64,000 nt of DNA from Streptomyces buecherae. GTDB taxonomy: Bacteria; Actinomycetota; Actinomycetes; Streptomycetales; Streptomycetaceae. The first letter of the stretch is position 1. Every line of letters starts with the position of its first letter. The DNA is taken from assembly GCF_014295035.1 (NCBI RefSeq), contig NZ_CP060404.1:1406001-1470000 (forward strand), written 5' to 3'. Both the position numbers and the translations under genes were made by a program. Below are positions 58,515 through 64,000 of the stretch, one piece after another. A model generated the notes under the pieces. It was given only the letters and a program-made list of their open reading frames with translations. It was not told where the DNA came from and did not search any database.

Positions 58515-60335
58515 TCAGCGGCCGACCGCGTACCCCTGGGCCCCGCGCGGATTGGCCGCCGCCGACAGCACGCCGGTCTCCGGGTCCCGGGCGACCGCGC
58601 TCAGCCTGCCCTCCGACCAGGGCCCGCCGACGCTCACGTCGTGGCCCCTGCGGCGCAGCTCCGCGATCAGCTCCGGGTCGAACCGCTCCTCGACGGTGAC
58701 GCCGCCGGGGCGCATGCCGCGCGGGTAGAACGACTCGGGGAAGCCCTCCTGGTGCCAGTTGGGTGCGTCGATGGCGCCCTGCAGGTCGAGCCCGCCGCGC
58801 ACGGGCGGGCGCAGCGCCACCGCGAGGAAGAAGTGCGTCTGCCACTGGTCCTGCTGGTCGCCGCCGGGGGTGCCGAAGGCGAGGACGGGCTCGCCGTCGC
58901 GCAGCGCGAGGGAGGGCGAGAGCGTGGTGCGCGGGCGGCGCCCCGGGGTGAGCGTGTTCGGCAGGTCCGGGTCGAGCCAGGCCATCTGGAGCCGGGTGCC
59001 GAGGGGGAAGCCGAGTTCGGGGACGACGGGGCTGGACTGGAGCCAGCCGCCGCTGGGCGTCGCCGAGACCATGTTGCCCCAGCGGTCCACGACGTCCAGG
59101 TGGCAGGTGTCGCCCCGGGTGCCGCCGTCGGCCGTCACGGTCGGCTCGCCGACCCCCGCCGCTGCGCTGGTCAGCACGCCGGTCGCGGCCCGCTCGCCAC
59201 GGGCCACGGCGTGGGTGTGCGCGGCCAGGCGCGGCACCCGGCCCTCGGGGTGCCCCGGGCGCAGCTCGTACGAGGCGCCTGGGCCGATCAGCGCGCGGCG
59301 GGCGGCGTTGTAGTCCGCGTCGAGGAGGGCGGCCAGCGGCACGGTGCCCGGCCCGCGCGCGTCGCCGTACCACGCCTCCCGGTCGGCGAAGGCGAGCTTG
59401 CCGCCCTCGACGAGGGTGTGCACGTACGCGGCCGTGCCGTGGTCGGCGGCGGTCAGGCCGTCCGGGAGCAGGGCGAGTTGTTGGAGCAGGACCGGGCCCT
59501 GCGACCAGGGGCCCGGCTTGCACACGGTCCAGCCCTGCCAGTCGTAGCGGGCCGGCTCCTCGTACGTGGCCTCGAAGGCGGCCAGGTCGTCGCCGCTGAG
59601 CGGGCCCGCGTGCCGCTCACCCGAGGTGTCGAGCGCCGGGCGGGCGGCGGAGGCGACCAGTGCCTCGGCTATGAAGCCGGTCCGCCACACCCGGCGCGCG
59701 GCGTCGATGCGCGCCTCGCGGTCGCCGCCGGCCGCGTCCGCCTCGGCCAGCAGGCGCCGCCAGGTGGCGGCCAGCGGCCGGTTGGTGAACAGGGTGCCGG
59801 GGGCGGGCGCCTTCCCGCCGGGCAGGTAGACCTCAGCCGAGGTGGTCCACTCGCTCTCGAACAGGGCCCGCACCCGCTCCACGGTCTCCGTCAGCCGCTC
59901 GACGGGCGGGTGGCCCGCCTCCGCGTAGCCGATGGCGTACCGGAGCACGGACGCGAGCGACTTGGTGCCGTGGTCGCGCAGGAGAAGCAGCCACGCGTCG
60001 AAGGCGCCGGGGACGGCGGCGGCCAGCGGCCCGGTGCCGGGGACCAGCTCCAGGCCGAGGTCGCGGTAGGCGGCGGCGCTGGCGCCGGCCGGCGCGGGGC
60101 CCTGCCCGCACAGCACGCGCACCGCGCCGCCGGCCGGGGCGATGATGATCGGGACCTCGCCGGCCGGGCCGTTCAGGTGCGGCTCGACCACGTGCAGCAC
60201 GAACGCGGCGGCCACGGCCGCGTCGTAGGCGTTCCCGCCGTCCTCCAGGACCGCCATCGCCGACTGGGAGGCGAGCCAGTGCGTCGACGAGGCCATGCCG
60301 AAGGTGCCGTGCAGGGTGGGCCGGGTGGTGAACAC
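58515..60335 (-). CDS. gamma-glutamyltransferase-family Ntn hydrolase
   Basis: A 606-residue gamma-glutamyltranspeptidase. 'ASSTHWLASQSAMAVLEDGGNAYDAAVAA' begins the heavy chain (short segment 'GGNAYDAAVAAAF' is diagnostic). The autocleavage/nucleophile Thr410 is in 'RGDTCHLDVVDRWGNMVS', and the small-subunit glycine loop is 'TPGGDQQDQWQ'. Unlike most bacterial GGTs I see no signal peptide, so it may be cytosolic, as in the cephalosporin-acylase-like branch. It hydrolyses or transfers gamma-glutamyl groups, or a related amide. GTG 60335 follows GAGGAG by about 10 bases. It lies 114 bp downstream of the sulfite oxidase gene. Confidence 0.88.
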   Translation of the reverse strand: MFTTRPTLHGTFGMASSTHWLASQSAMAVLEDGGNAYDAAVAAAFVLHVVEPHLNGPAGEVPIIIAPAGGAVRVLCGQGPAPAGASAAAYRDLGLELVPGTGPLAAAVPGAFDAWLLLLRDHGTKSLASVLRYAIGYAEAGHPPVERLTETVERVRALFESEWTTSAEVYLPGGKAPAPGTLFTNRPLAATWRRLLAEADAAGGDREARIDAARRVWRTGFIAEALVASAARPALDTSGERHAGPLSGDDLAAFEATYEEPARYDWQGWTVCKPGPWSQGPVLLQQLALLPDGLTAADHGTAAYVHTLVEGGKLAFADREAWYGDARGPGTVPLAALLDADYNAARRALIGPGASYELRPGHPEGRVPRLAAHTHAVARGERAATGVLTSAAAGVGEPTVTADGGTRGDTCHLDVVDRWGNMVSATPSGGWLQSSPVVPELGFPLGTRLQMAWLDPDLPNTLTPGRRPRTTLSPSLALRDGEPVLAFGTPGGDQQDQWQTHFFLAVALRPPVRGGLDLQGAIDAPNWHQEGFPESFYPRGMRPGGVTVEERFDPELIAELRRRGHDVSVGGPWSEGRLSAVARDPETGVLSAAANPRGAQGYAVGR

Positions 60336-60449
60336 GAGAGCGGGCTCCTCGGGCCGGGGGCGGGTGCGCTGGCGCGAGCGTACGCAGCGCGCGCACGGTC
60401 GCGGCAGTACGCCCGCCCCCGGCCTCGGGGCGAGGAGTGGGTGACCGGC

Positions 60450-61628
60450 TCAGACGACCGTGACCGGGAGGCGGACCACCGCGTCGAAGAAGTAGCCCTG
60501 GGTGTTGGGCGGGGTGTGGTCGGGCTGGGTGTTGCCCGCCGCGTCGGTGGCCCGGGCCAGCAGCGTGGTCGGGCCGGTGGCGTGTGGGTGCCAAGGCACG
60601 GACCAGCGGACCCAGCCGTACCGGCGCGGCGGGTCCTGGAGCTGGGCCCGGCGCCAGTGCGCCCCGCCGTCGGTGCTCACCCGCACCTCGACCACGGGCG
60701 CGTGCCCGGACCAGGAGCGGCCGGTCAGCCGGTGGGTGTGGCGGGCGTCGAGGGTGGCGCCGTGGTCCAGTTCGAAGGTGGATCTGACGGGCTGTCGGGT
60801 CAGCGGCGCGCTGCCCTGCGGCGGGTGGCCTGGCCCGAACAGCCGGTAGTAGTCGGTGTCCCAGGGCGAGTGCAGGGCCTCGGCGCTGACCTCGATGTCG
60901 CCGAGCCACTTGATGGAGGCGATGCCGACCCAGGACGGCACCACCACGCGGAGCGGGAAGCCGTGGTCGGGCGGCAGCGGCGCGCCGTTCATCTCGTACG
61001 CGAGGAGCACGTCGGCCAGCGCCTTGGCGACCGGCAGCGGGCGGCGCACCCGGCCCTGGTTCACGCCGGCCGTGACGTACTCCGCGTCGAGCCCGCGCGG
61101 CATGACGGCCACGGCGTGGTCGCCGATCCCCGCCCGGTGCAGCACGTCGGCCAGGCGCACCCCGCGCCAGCGGGCCACGCCGACGGCGCCGAGCGTCCAG
61201 GGCGTGCCGGTGACGGTGTCGTGCTGCTGGGAGGCGAAGTAGCCGCGCGCGTTGCCGGCGCACTCGATGGCCACATCGCGGCTGACGGCGGGCAGGGCGC
61301 GCAGGTCGGCCAGGGTGAACCGGACGGGCCCGCCGCGCAGCCCGCTGCCCCACACGGTCAGCCGCCAGGTGTCCGCGTCGAGGGCGGGGGTCGCGGTGTG
61401 GTTGCGGACGAAGAAGCGGTCGTTGGGCGTGTGGAAGCCGGTGCCACGCAGGGCCGACGGGCGGGTTTCGGCGTTGGTGCCGTGGCGGGTGAACACGTCG
61501 GCCGGCAGCGGTTTGACGATGCCGCCGGGCGCCTCGGCCGCCACGGCGGGCGTAGCGGCGCGGGCGGCCTGGGCGGCGACGGGGACGGTGGCGAGCAGCT
61601 TGAGGACGGTACGTCGGGCAGAAGTCAT
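60450..61628 (-). CDS. Tat-exported molybdopterin sulfite oxidase-family enzyme
   Basis: A 392-residue molybdoenzyme. Tat-type signal 'SARRTVLKLLATVPVAA' with twin Arg5-Arg6. Then the sulfite-oxidase fold: 'FHTPNDRFFVRNHTATP', Mo-ligand Cys123 in 'VAIECAGNARGYF', 'HGFPLRVVVPSWVGIASIKWL' (short 'GIASIKWLGDI' is the hallmark), and an immunoglobulin-like dimerisation domain from ~285. It lacks a heme domain, so an external cytochrome takes the electrons. Oxidises sulfite to sulfate, probably outside the membrane. ATG 61628 follows GAGGTG. A cysteine-rich leader peptide lies upstream and probably controls it. Confidence 0.92.
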   Translation of the reverse strand: MTSARRTVLKLLATVPVAAQAARAATPAVAAEAPGGIVKPLPADVFTRHGTNAETRPSALRGTGFHTPNDRFFVRNHTATPALDADTWRLTVWGSGLRGGPVRFTLADLRALPAVSRDVAIECAGNARGYFASQQHDTVTGTPWTLGAVGVARWRGVRLADVLHRAGIGDHAVAVMPRGLDAEYVTAGVNQGRVRRPLPVAKALADVLLAYEMNGAPLPPDHGFPLRVVVPSWVGIASIKWLGDIEVSAEALHSPWDTDYYRLFGPGHPPQGSAPLTRQPVRSTFELDHGATLDARHTHRLTGRSWSGHAPVVEVRVSTDGGAHWRRAQLQDPPRRYGWVRWSVPWHPHATGPTTLLARATDAAGNTQPDHTPPNTQGYFFDAVVRLPVTVV

Positions 61629-61730
61629 CGCGGAACACCTCGGGAGGAGAGCGCTGGCGGGCGCGGACGCCCGGGAGCGCGGGAGGGGCGAGGGAGCGGG
61701 CGCGCGGGGCGCGCGGGGGCGAGGCAGGCG

Positions 61731-61781
61731 TCAGCGACAACAACGACAGGGGCGCGGCACAGAGCGCGCGGTGACAGCCAT
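61731..61781 (-). CDS. 16-residue cysteine-rich leader peptide
   Basis: ORF of 17 codons: MAVTARSVPRPCRCCR then TGA. Three cysteines fall in the last five residues. It begins exactly where a leaderless message would: TAAGAT ends 6 bases before the ATG. The sulfite oxidase gene starts 102 bp after its stop. Actinobacteria use such Cys-rich leaderless ORFs as attenuators: scarce Cys-tRNA stalls ribosomes and alters expression of the sulfur gene behind. The very GC-rich gap can form hairpins. Too short for standard gene finders; the sequence features agree closely with the known class. Confidence 0.82.
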   Translation of the reverse strand: MAVTARSVPRPCRCCR

Positions 61782-61787
61782 GCGGGC

Positions 61788-61816
61788 ATCTTAGACACGC
61801 GCCCGGGCCGGGTCAG
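61788..61816 (-). promoter_or_regulatory. promoter of the leader peptide / sulfite oxidase gene
   Basis: Minus strand: -35 CTGACC (61816-61811), 17-base spacer, -10 TAAGAT (61793-61788), then 6 bases to the leader ATG at 61781. The geometry is that of a sigma-70-type promoter giving a leaderless transcript. Confidence 0.75.
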
Positions 61817-61833
61817 CGCCTCCCGCACGACGG

Positions 61834-61990
61834 CTGCGGCGCACCGCTCGAACGGCGGCCGGCCACCCGGCGGTACGGGGCGGGGCGTGCCCAACACGGC
61901 TCAACGCGGCCCAACACGGCCCGGGCGACGGGGCGGCGGGGCGACGGGGCGACGGGGCGACGGGGCGGCGGGGCGACGGGGCGGGGATGA
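61834..61990. repeat. GCGACGGG tandem repeats and CAACACGG short repeats
   Basis: From 61922 to 61985, about eight copies of an 8-bp unit GCGACGGG/GCGGCGGG. Just before (61895-61920) are three CAACACGGC/CAACGCGGC copies. Together with 61782-62069 this fills the gap between the sulfite oxidase leader and the flavin oxidoreductase; I see no gene. Confidence 0.8.
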
Positions 61991-62069
61991 CGGCGGGCGG
62001 TGGCGGGGGCCGGCCGGGTAGCGGCGGGGCGGGGCCGGCCGGTGGTGCGGCCGGTCCCGCGCTGCCGGG

Positions 62070-63086
62070 CTACAGGGCCTCGAAGCCCGGGATGACCTCC
62101 TGGCCGTAGCCGTCGATGACGTGCTCGCGCGCGTCGTGCATCGCGTACACGGCGAACTGGTCGACGCCCAGGTCGCGCAGGGCGGCCAGGCGGGCGATGT
62201 GGGCACGCGGCGGGCCGATGAGGCAGAAGCGGTCGACGATCTCGTCGGGGACGAACTCGGTGTCGGGGTTGTCGGCGCGGCCGTGGTGGGCGTAGTCGTA
62301 ACCCGTGCGCCGCTCGATGTAGCCGGTGAGTTCGGCGGGGACCAGGTCGGAGTCCTGGCCGTAGCGGCTGACGAGGTCGGCGACGTGGTTGCCGACCATG
62401 CCGCCGAACCACCGGCACTGCTGCCTGGCGTGCGCCAGCGCCTCGGGCGTGTCGTCGCACAGGTAGGCGGGCGCGGCGACACAGATCCTCACCTCGCGCG
62501 GGTCGCGGCCGGCGTCGGCCGCCGCGTCGCGCACCGCCGTGACCATCCACTCCGTCAGCAACGGGTCGGCCAGTTGCAGGATGAACCCGTCGGCCTTCTG
62601 CCCGGCCAGCGCCAGCGCCTTGGGCCCGTACGCCGCCATCCACACCGGCAGCCGGCCCCCGCGCACCCACGGCAGCCGCACCGTGGCGCCGTCCACCACC
62701 GCCTCGCGCCCCTCGGCGAGGTCGCGCAGGGCGTCGATGCAGGTGCCGAGGGTGGCCAGGCTGCACGGGCGGCGGCCGGCGACGCGTAGCGCCGAGTCGC
62801 CGCGGCCGATGCCGCACACGGTGCGGTTGCCGTACATCTCGTTGAGCGTGGCGAAGGTGGAGGCCGTCACCTCCCAGGTGCGGGTGCCCGGGTTGGTGAC
62901 CATGGGGCCGACGATGAGGCGCTCGGTGTGTTCGAGCACCCGGCTGTGGATGACGAACGGCTCCTGCCACAGCACGGCGGAGTCGAACGTCCAGCCGTAG
63001 CGGAAGCCGTTGCGTTCGGCGCGCCGCATCAGGCCGACGGTCTGCGCGGCGGGTGGGTCGAGCTGCAAGACGAGGCCGAAGTCCAC
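62070..63086 (-). CDS. LLM-class flavin-dependent oxidoreductase
   Basis: A 338-residue luciferase-like monooxygenase (bacterial TIM-barrel flavin/F420 family): 'MDFGLVLQLDPPAAQTVGLM', 'YGWTFDSAVLWQEPFVIHSR', 'GPMVTNPGTRTWEVTASTFATL' (in parts), 'GIGRGDSALRVAGRRP' and 'PVWMAAYGPKALALAGQKAD'. This subgroup usually lies beside dihydropyrimidinase genes and probably serves cyclic-amide or pyrimidine breakdown. GTG 63086 follows AGGAGGG. The dihydropyrimidinase gene ends 73 bp upstream on the same strand, pointing to an operon. Confidence 0.9.
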   Translation of the reverse strand: MDFGLVLQLDPPAAQTVGLMRRAERNGFRYGWTFDSAVLWQEPFVIHSRVLEHTERLIVGPMVTNPGTRTWEVTASTFATLNEMYGNRTVCGIGRGDSALRVAGRRPCSLATLGTCIDALRDLAEGREAVVDGATVRLPWVRGGRLPVWMAAYGPKALALAGQKADGFILQLADPLLTEWMVTAVRDAAADAGRDPREVRICVAAPAYLCDDTPEALAHARQQCRWFGGMVGNHVADLVSRYGQDSDLVPAELTGYIERRTGYDYAHHGRADNPDTEFVPDEIVDRFCLIGPPRAHIARLAALRDLGVDQFAVYAMHDAREHVIDGYGQEVIPGFEAL

Positions 63087-63158
63087 GGTGGCCCTCCTGA
63101 CGTGACGGGGTGGGGGTGGCCCGGCGGCCGGGGCCCGGAGGTGGCCGGGGCAGCCGGG

Positions 63159-64000
63159 CTAGTGCAGGTACGCGCAGGTGTCGCGCGGCACGTACCGGCC
63201 GTGGCCCGCGCGGCCGGTGAAGGTGCGCCGGTCGATGACGACCTCGCCGCGCGAGAGCACCGTCTCGCACCGGCCGGTGACCTCGCGGCCCTCGTACGCC
63301 GAGTAGTCCACGCTCATGTGGTGGGTGCGCGCGGAGATCACCTGGCTGGCCCGCGGGTCGTAGATGACCAGGTCGGCGTCGGAGCCGGGGGCGATGGTGC
63401 CCTTGCGCGGGTAGAGGCCGAACATCCGGGCCGGGGCCGCGCAGGCGATGTCGATCCAGCGGCGCCGCGAGATGTGGCCGTCGACCACCCCCTGGTGCAG
63501 CAGGTCCATCCGGTGCTCCACGCCGGGCAGCCCGTTGGGGATCTTCGAGAAGTCGCCGCGGCCCAGCTCCTTCTGGCCCGCGAAGCAGAACGGGCAGTGG
63601 TCGGTCGAGACCACCTGGAGGTCGTCGGTACGCAGGCCGCGCCAGAGCGCGGCCTGGTGCTCGCGGGGCCGCAGCGGCGTGCTGCACACGTACTTGGCGC
63701 CCTCGAAGTCCGGCTCGGCCAGGTTGTCGACGGACAGGAACAGGTACTGCGGGCAGGTCTCGCCGAAGACCGGCAGCCCCGCGTCCCTGGCCCGCGCCAG
63801 CTCCGCGAGCGCCTCGGCGGCGGAGACGTGCACCACGTACAGCGGGCAGTCGGCGACCCGGGCCAGCGCGATGGCCCGGTGCGTGGCCTCCGCCTCCAAC
63901 AGGGTCCTGCGGACCTCGCCGTGGTGGCGCGGGTCGGTGCGGCCCTCGGCGACGGCCTGCTCGACCAGGACGTCGATGGCCGGGCCGTTCTCGGCGTGCA
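63159..64000 (-). CDS. dihydropyrimidinase / D-hydantoinase, C-terminal part
   Basis: About 280 codons of a cyclic amidohydrolase; the N-terminus lies beyond the right edge. 'HAENGPAID' at the edge is the metal-site motif, followed by 'ADCPLYVVHVSAAEAL' (metal His), 'GETCPQYLFL', 'STDHCPF' (catalytic Asp), 'IPNGLPGVEHRMDLL' and the C-terminal beta sandwich 'KGTIAPGSDADLVIYDP'. It opens dihydrouracil or hydantoins to N-carbamoyl acids, the second step of reductive pyrimidine degradation. The first part of the protein, with HxH and the carboxylated Lys, is not visible. TAG stop at 63159-63161. Confidence 0.92.
   Translation of the reverse strand, partial: HAENGPAIDVLVEQAVAEGRTDPRHHGEVRRTLLEAEATHRAIALARVADCPLYVVHVSAAEALAELARARDAGLPVFGETCPQYLFLSVDNLAEPDFEGAKYVCSTPLRPREHQAALWRGLRTDDLQVVSTDHCPFCFAGQKELGRGDFSKIPNGLPGVEHRMDLLHQGVVDGHISRRRWIDIACAAPARMFGLYPRKGTIAPGSDADLVIYDPRASQVISARTHHMSVDYSAYEGREVTGRCETVLSRGEVVIDRRTFTGRAGHGRYVPRDTCAYLH

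Follow-up and report, generated by a model that had tools for sequence, protein, structure and literature searches.

Does a very short open reading frame (ORF) that ends in cysteine codons adjust the amount of the sulfite-oxidase-family enzyme encoded just downstream of it in Streptomyces buecherae? The question arises from a single site in the window, i.e., the whole 64-kb stretch of DNA that was analysed. We approached it by comparing the locus with its relatives and by predicting the RNA folds that connect the ORF with the oxidase gene.

The leader ORF and the gene that follows

The ORF, which we call the leader, lies on the minus strand, as do all the features described below. It consists of 16 codons (MAVTARSVPRPCRCCR followed by TGA, 61731–61781), with the ATG at 61781–61779 and the stop at 61733–61731. 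Its Cys codons are clustered near the 3′ end of the ORF, the C-terminal end of the peptide being CRCCR: codons 12, 14 and 15 (61737–61748) are all TGT and the last of them sits one codon ahead of the stop. A C-rich stretch of 102 nt (61629–61730) separates the leader stop from the oxidase ATG at 61628. Both the 16-residue ORF with CRCC near its end and the 102-bp distance to the enzyme gene, which an earlier note on this DNA had reported, are confirmed.

The -10 hexamer TAAGAT (61788–61793) is found 6 nt before the leader ATG, and the -35-like hexamer CTGACC (61811–61816) precedes it with a spacer of 17 nt, so that transcription is predicted to start on the ATG itself. The same note had described this promoter as near-consensus. 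The CTGACC-17-TAAGAT arrangement is indeed present; the term is generous, because by eye each hexamer agrees with the consensus at 4 of 6 positions, and a sigma-70 scan with a threshold of 9/12 returned no standard promoter in 61400–62100. The promoter reading is supported by the frequent recurrence of the -10-to-start spacing among relatives; CTGACC or CTGACG is also seen by eye 17–18 nt ahead of the -10 in the related loci L081, L082 and L083. No intrinsic terminator between leader and oxidase was detected in 61400–62100, nor was any Rfam element found at gathering score in 60000–63500. Scanning both strands for TANNNT followed after 5–8 nt by ATG or GTG and an ORF of 6–60 amino acids, with at least two Cys among its last six residues, identified the leader as the sole site of this kind in the window, and none of 5000 shuffles of the window's region upstream of the oxidase yielded a leaderless Cys-tailed site. 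Just upstream of the leader promoter there is a GC-rich tandem array with periods of 8, 16 and 24 (61923–62032), and a run resembling it is visible in L081.

Domain content and structure matches identify the downstream gene (60450–61628) as coding for a molybdoenzyme of the sulfite oxidase family (392 aa) with a Tat-like N-terminus. The protein contains the Oxidored_molyb and Mo-co_dimer domains, and the solved chains that match it best are sulfite oxidases, namely 2a99 (E = 9.8e-49) and 1sox (E = 3.2e-48). RNH and CAGN are both preserved in the alignments with these two chains; the Arg of the former and the Cys of the latter are taken to be active-site residues. Its scores are below the NCBIfam equivalog cut-offs of SorA (203 against 600 bits), SoxC (190 against 420) and SorT (180 against 570). 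Therefore, the name sulfite oxidase given to it earlier stands at the level of the family and does not extend to any of these three equivalogs. The word "exported" has a single basis, the stretch RRTVLK near the N-terminus, judged Tat-like by eye, and the role of the enzyme in sulfite detoxification is putative. The next gene on the same strand (58515–60335) encodes, according to a domain search, a gamma-glutamyltransferase whose co-transcription with the oxidase is putative, and is followed by an inositol-monophosphatase-family gene.

Recurrence and codon usage of the leader

Oxidase loci were gathered from 50 contig loci, 150 family genomes, 392 genus genomes and extra regions. Some oxidase match at E ≤ 0.001 is present in 145 of the 150 family genomes, and 127 of the 392 genus genomes match at E ≤ 1e-100. 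The upstream regions were searched for TANNNT followed after 5–8 nt by ATG or GTG and a short ORF with at least two Cys in its last five residues. In the first set, 15 of 46 distinct loci (≥57% identity) carry such a leader, whereas 200 dinucleotide shuffles average 0.01 and the reverse strand of the same loci gives 0 of 46. In the enlarged set of 163 distinct regions upstream of orthologs, 33 have a leaderless Cys-tailed ORF and 130 do not. These 163 regions include L013, L014, L015 and L044, which are outside the Streptomycetaceae, and L200 with 46% identity; L023, L129 and L131 (short upstream), L070 and L103 (duplicates) and loci below 57% identity are excluded, and partial matches in G151, G197, G452, G307, G201 and G049 were left out of the relatives. 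More distant loci (<57% identity) have the leader in 0 of 29 cases within the 500-nt upstream regions searched, a count that leaves out L017 and L023 (short upstream). The Cys at the ORF end, being part of the search criterion, is not independent evidence; the evidence lies in how often the spacing and the Cys tail, both belonging to that criterion, recur.

The 33 leaders correspond to 30 distinct peptides. The peptide of L081 is identical to the window peptide, and L082 (MAVMSRLSSRRCCCR) and L083 (MAVMSRPLSRRCCCR) likewise begin with MAV and end in a Cys tail. The common type outside the window's clade reads MIxSxxRxxAPRxR.....GCC. Overall, the peptide bodies differ widely. Column identity averages 34% among the 27 leaders with 20 or more residues; the initiator Met never varies, nor does one Cys of the tail, and a second Cys is almost invariant. 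We looked for coding-type conservation of the body in 11 aligned leaders and found none, since substitutions at codon positions 1, 2 and 3 (408, 463 and 298) display no third-position excess. All 33 leaders stop with TGA, which says little because the genome is GC-rich. In a tree of 102 oxidases, as read from the drawing, the 22 leader-bearing rows are scattered over several branches that are separated by rows lacking the leader.

Some loci depart from the general picture. L058 has the ORF and the Cys tail and lacks TANNNT. In L001 (S. philanthi), a locus with 91% identity to that of the window, the -10 and the ATG are intact, and one extra base relative to the window brings a stop just before the Cys codons; this frameshifted leader constitutes a natural test of the leader. 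At 17 of the 163 loci, the gene preceding the oxidase carries a C-terminal GHDGFL motif and is presumably homoserine-acetyltransferase-like (MetX-like), as named from the motif; the leader is found at 0 of these 17, and neither the leader nor this gene is present at 113 of the 163. With the MetX-like gene upstream (L052, L084, L088 and others), the oxidase stands in a different sulfur setting.

The spelling of the terminal Cys codons is distinctive. Within the last five codons of the 30 distinct leaders, Cys is encoded by TGT in 61 of 70 cases and by TGC in 9, whereas 38 long ORFs of the window use TGT in 11 and TGC in 129 of 140 cases (Fisher p = 1.8e-31, shared ancestry ignored). The remaining leader codons end in C or T in 341 and 29 cases, respectively. 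At the level of sequence, this rare TGT spelling of the terminal Cys codons points to a testable rule.

Other Cys leaders are present in the same genome. With 150 of 277 first-look candidates scored, at least seven sites exceed the cut-off of the NCBIfam leader model NF042934, an eighth is below it, and six weaker matches look like chance. The genes after the seven, most of which belong to sulfur metabolism, are Sulfatase, ThiS, CDO_I, sulfite reductase, BPD_transp_1, Rhodanese and FMN_red, the sulfite reductase having been named by eye from its sequence and its place before a cysH-type gene, not from Pfam; the weak eighth leader precedes an SDF symporter gene, and that of the rhodanese also passes NF042933. 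One of these leaders, L222 (G000:C1:2030027-2030083), stands before the gene for cysteine dioxygenase, so that an enzyme which degrades cysteine would apparently be controlled by a Cys leader. Of the 8 annotated-type leaders, 7 have TGT as their final Cys codon, the exception being L222, in which a later Cys is TGC; at the end of the matched motif, Cys is written TGT in 8 of 8 (L220–L227), and TANNNT is found 6–7 nt ahead of a possible start in 4 of 8. Membership of the oxidase leaders in these NCBIfam families is ruled out, since 0 of the 27 with at least 20 residues match NF042933 or NF042934 at E up to 10. One of the 27 gives a chance-level match to YrbN (E = 0.1). The scan with leader models has a limit of 20 residues, above the 16 of the window peptide (19 with the open frame upstream), and the genome search with NF042934 yielded no match at the window leader among the 150 of 277 candidates scored.

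Taken at sequence level, these results uphold the reading of the ORF as a Cys-codon leader, because Cys-tailed ORFs reappear at this gene much more often than expected by chance, with peptide bodies that vary, and TGT is used in the tail; the other Cys leaders of the genome agree with it.

Predicted pairing between the leader end and the oxidase start

In the predicted fold of the window leader, the Cys codons, the stop and the next bases are paired to the region where oxidase translation begins, comprising the ribosome-binding site and the start codon. One strand, arm 2 (61719–61748), consists of the Cys codons, the stop and the following 12 nt, and the other, arm 3 (61617–61643), contains the ribosome-binding site GAGGTG (61641–61636) and the start codon. 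The whole fold has a predicted energy of -66.2 kcal/mol with z = -1.86, which is modestly unusual. The duplex formed by the two arms alone, tested with arms slightly shorter than 61748–61719 and 61643–61617, reaches -21.2, -18.0 and -17.2 kcal/mol in L051, L082 and L083, respectively. Equally strong duplexes are given by 1, 3 and 0 of 2000 shuffles of arm 3, by 2, 27 and 7 of 2000 shuffles of arm 2, by 2 of 96 arms 3 from leader-less relatives at each of the three loci, and by 0, 6 and 6 of 29 arms 3 of other leader clades. When the tail Cys codons are recoded to TGC, the duplexes weaken to -14.4, -11.7 and -12.5 kcal/mol. Both arms are kept while the distance from stop to start ranges from 60 to 130 nt. 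Stronger duplex partners of arm 2 are found inside the oxidase coding region.

This complementarity belongs to the window's clade. The arm test gives p ≤ 0.05 in 3 of 30 distinct leaders, all of that clade, and the pairing is absent from the other leader clades among the 30 leaders tested. In L051, masking the Cys codons raises the predicted openness of the start site only modestly, from 0.16 to 0.28–0.35, and masking the stop has as large an effect (0.36). In full folds, 15, 19, 52 and 26 of 200 shuffles equal L051, L081, L082 and L083, respectively, in the pairing of the ribosome site with the leader end. The main partner of the ribosome site lies at most 5 nt after the leader stop in 4 of 33 loci (L051, L081, L083 and partly L062). 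A universal hiding of the oxidase ribosome site by the leader end is rejected on these 4 of 33 loci and on the restriction of the arm test to the window's clade.

A second pairing, between the leader 5′ end and the Cys codons, is significant (p ≤ 0.05) for 13 of the 30 distinct leaders, with -14.1 for own pairs, -13.0 for mismatched pairs and an average of -14.8 for all-TGC versions. No mechanism was built on it, because own pairs barely beat mismatched ones and TGC pairs slightly better. RNAalifold, applied to three groups, reported 0, 8 and 1 pairs that change on both sides, an outcome that is not interpreted because the alignments are poor.

A probable cysteine-sensing leader, its alternatives and its known counterparts

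Our analysis makes it probable that the ORF is a cis-acting cysteine-sensing leader which sets the amount of the oxidase, in the window's clade probably via translation. Transcription would start on the leader ATG, and a ribosome would translate the 16 codons from the bare 5′ end, meeting three TGT Cys codons just ahead of the leader stop. With ample Cys-tRNA, the ribosome would leave fast and the segment from the Cys codons to the stop would fold onto the oxidase ribosome-binding site and start, keeping translation of the oxidase low. With scarce Cys-tRNA, the ribosome would wait on the Cys codons, cover this segment and free the oxidase start, and the oxidase would join the cysteine-starvation response. 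Under these circumstances the enzyme might plausibly turn external sulfite into importable sulfate as sulfur assimilation rises.

A more ambitious version of this reading, which we put forward only tentatively, is that the Cys codons serve both as sensor and as lock, TGT TGT CGC TGA both measuring Cys-tRNA and hiding the oxidase start, and that, taken with the seven annotated-type leaders, cysteine attenuation would form a genome-wide sulfur regulon in Streptomyces which also covers oxidative enzymes (sulfite oxidase, cysteine dioxygenase). Such a double function would explain TGT in the window's clade, given that a tail written with TGC leaves a duplex of -14.4 instead of -21.2 kcal/mol. Elsewhere the pairing would gain from TGC, so in those clades TGT must serve something else, e.g., slow decoding.

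The same cysteine-sensing leader could instead act on transcription, with Rho loading on the C-rich untranslated stretch after the stop and the waiting ribosome covering the loading site. In E. coli tnaC, a ribosome waiting at the leader end covers the Rho loading site. The Cys codons of the window leader end one codon before the stop, the region has no detected intrinsic terminator, and outside the window's clade no consistent pairing with the oxidase start is seen. Furthermore, the stretch after the stop has C 0.48 and G 0.28 in the 30 distinct leaders compared to C 0.40 and G 0.33 in 127 leader-less relatives, although a high C content is a weak indicator of Rho sites where the genome is GC-rich. 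In the window's clade, the ability of the leader end to pair with the start codon favours translational control, and we regard the Rho-type mechanism as rather unlikely overall. Weighing this pairing against its limitation to the window's clade and the weak full-fold statistics, we hold translational control there as likely, and Rho-type control as a real rival, chiefly in the other clades.

Two further explanations dispense with cysteine sensing. The main use of a translated leader could be to bring ribosomes onto a leaderless message, its Cys codons fixing a low expression that does not respond to cysteine. The poor conservation of the peptide bodies would suit this role, and leaderless starts are common in mycobacteria, according to PMC4633059; however, it leaves unexplained the recurrence of the Cys tail, the preference for TGT and the Cys leaders before sulfur genes of the same genome, and we consider it improbable. 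Still less credible is a chance ORF beside a promoter. Short ORFs are frequent and most relatives do without this leader, but the absence of such a site from 5000 shuffled versions of the window's upstream region and the 15 of 46 loci against 0.01 expected speak against chance, which is refuted as a general account by the latter figure and by the recurrence in 33 of 163 regions.

A cysteine-starvation switch on a sulfite-oxidising enzyme would be counter-intuitive, as sulfite would be drawn away from cysteine synthesis, and it would make the sulfur economy of Streptomyces directly testable. For the window's clade a second testable rule emerges, namely that the sensing codons would double as the strand that hides the next start codon. 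The oxidase leader is also of a type that annotation models miss. In a search of titles and abstract beginnings, covering few subscription papers, we found no report of a Cys leader preceding the sulfite oxidase gene of a Streptomyces.

The trp and ilv leaders are the classical amino-acid attenuators, with regulatory codons in a short translated leader. The window leader resembles them in placing such codons in a short ORF whose translation is predicted, and differs from them in that no intrinsic terminator was found between it and the oxidase. With the NF042933/NF042934 leaders it has in common the Cys leader and the genome, where these precede, e.g., the rhodanese and sulfite reductase genes; unlike them, the oxidase leaders end in CC, CCC or CRCCR rather than DLCRVA..LC.

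The closest counterparts are mycobacterial. The earlier note had pointed to Cys leader ORFs before actinobacterial sulfur genes, and these are known in mycobacteria, where conserved leaderless Cys-rich uORFs precede cysA2 and other genes (PMC4633059). PMC13236596 and PMC9094748 describe cysteine-responsive attenuation in mycobacteria, citing Canestrari et al. (2020), and the former gives M. tuberculosis ilvB1 as an example of an amino-acid attenuator. The window leader is like the mycobacterial polycysteine uORF attenuators in its leaderless start, short ORF, terminal Cys cluster, sulfur gene and proposed translational control; judged from sequence, the features it shares with such cysteine-responsive attenuators are a -10 element close to the start codon (6 nt here, about 7 nt being typical of them), the Cys cluster, the sulfur gene and conservation across species, here in 33 of 163 regions. 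It differs from them in genus and peptide, in having a sulfite-oxidase-family enzyme as target, and in that its cysteine response is a prediction. The present locus would thus extend Cys-codon leaders from the sulfur operons of mycobacteria to a sulfite-oxidase-family gene of Streptomyces.
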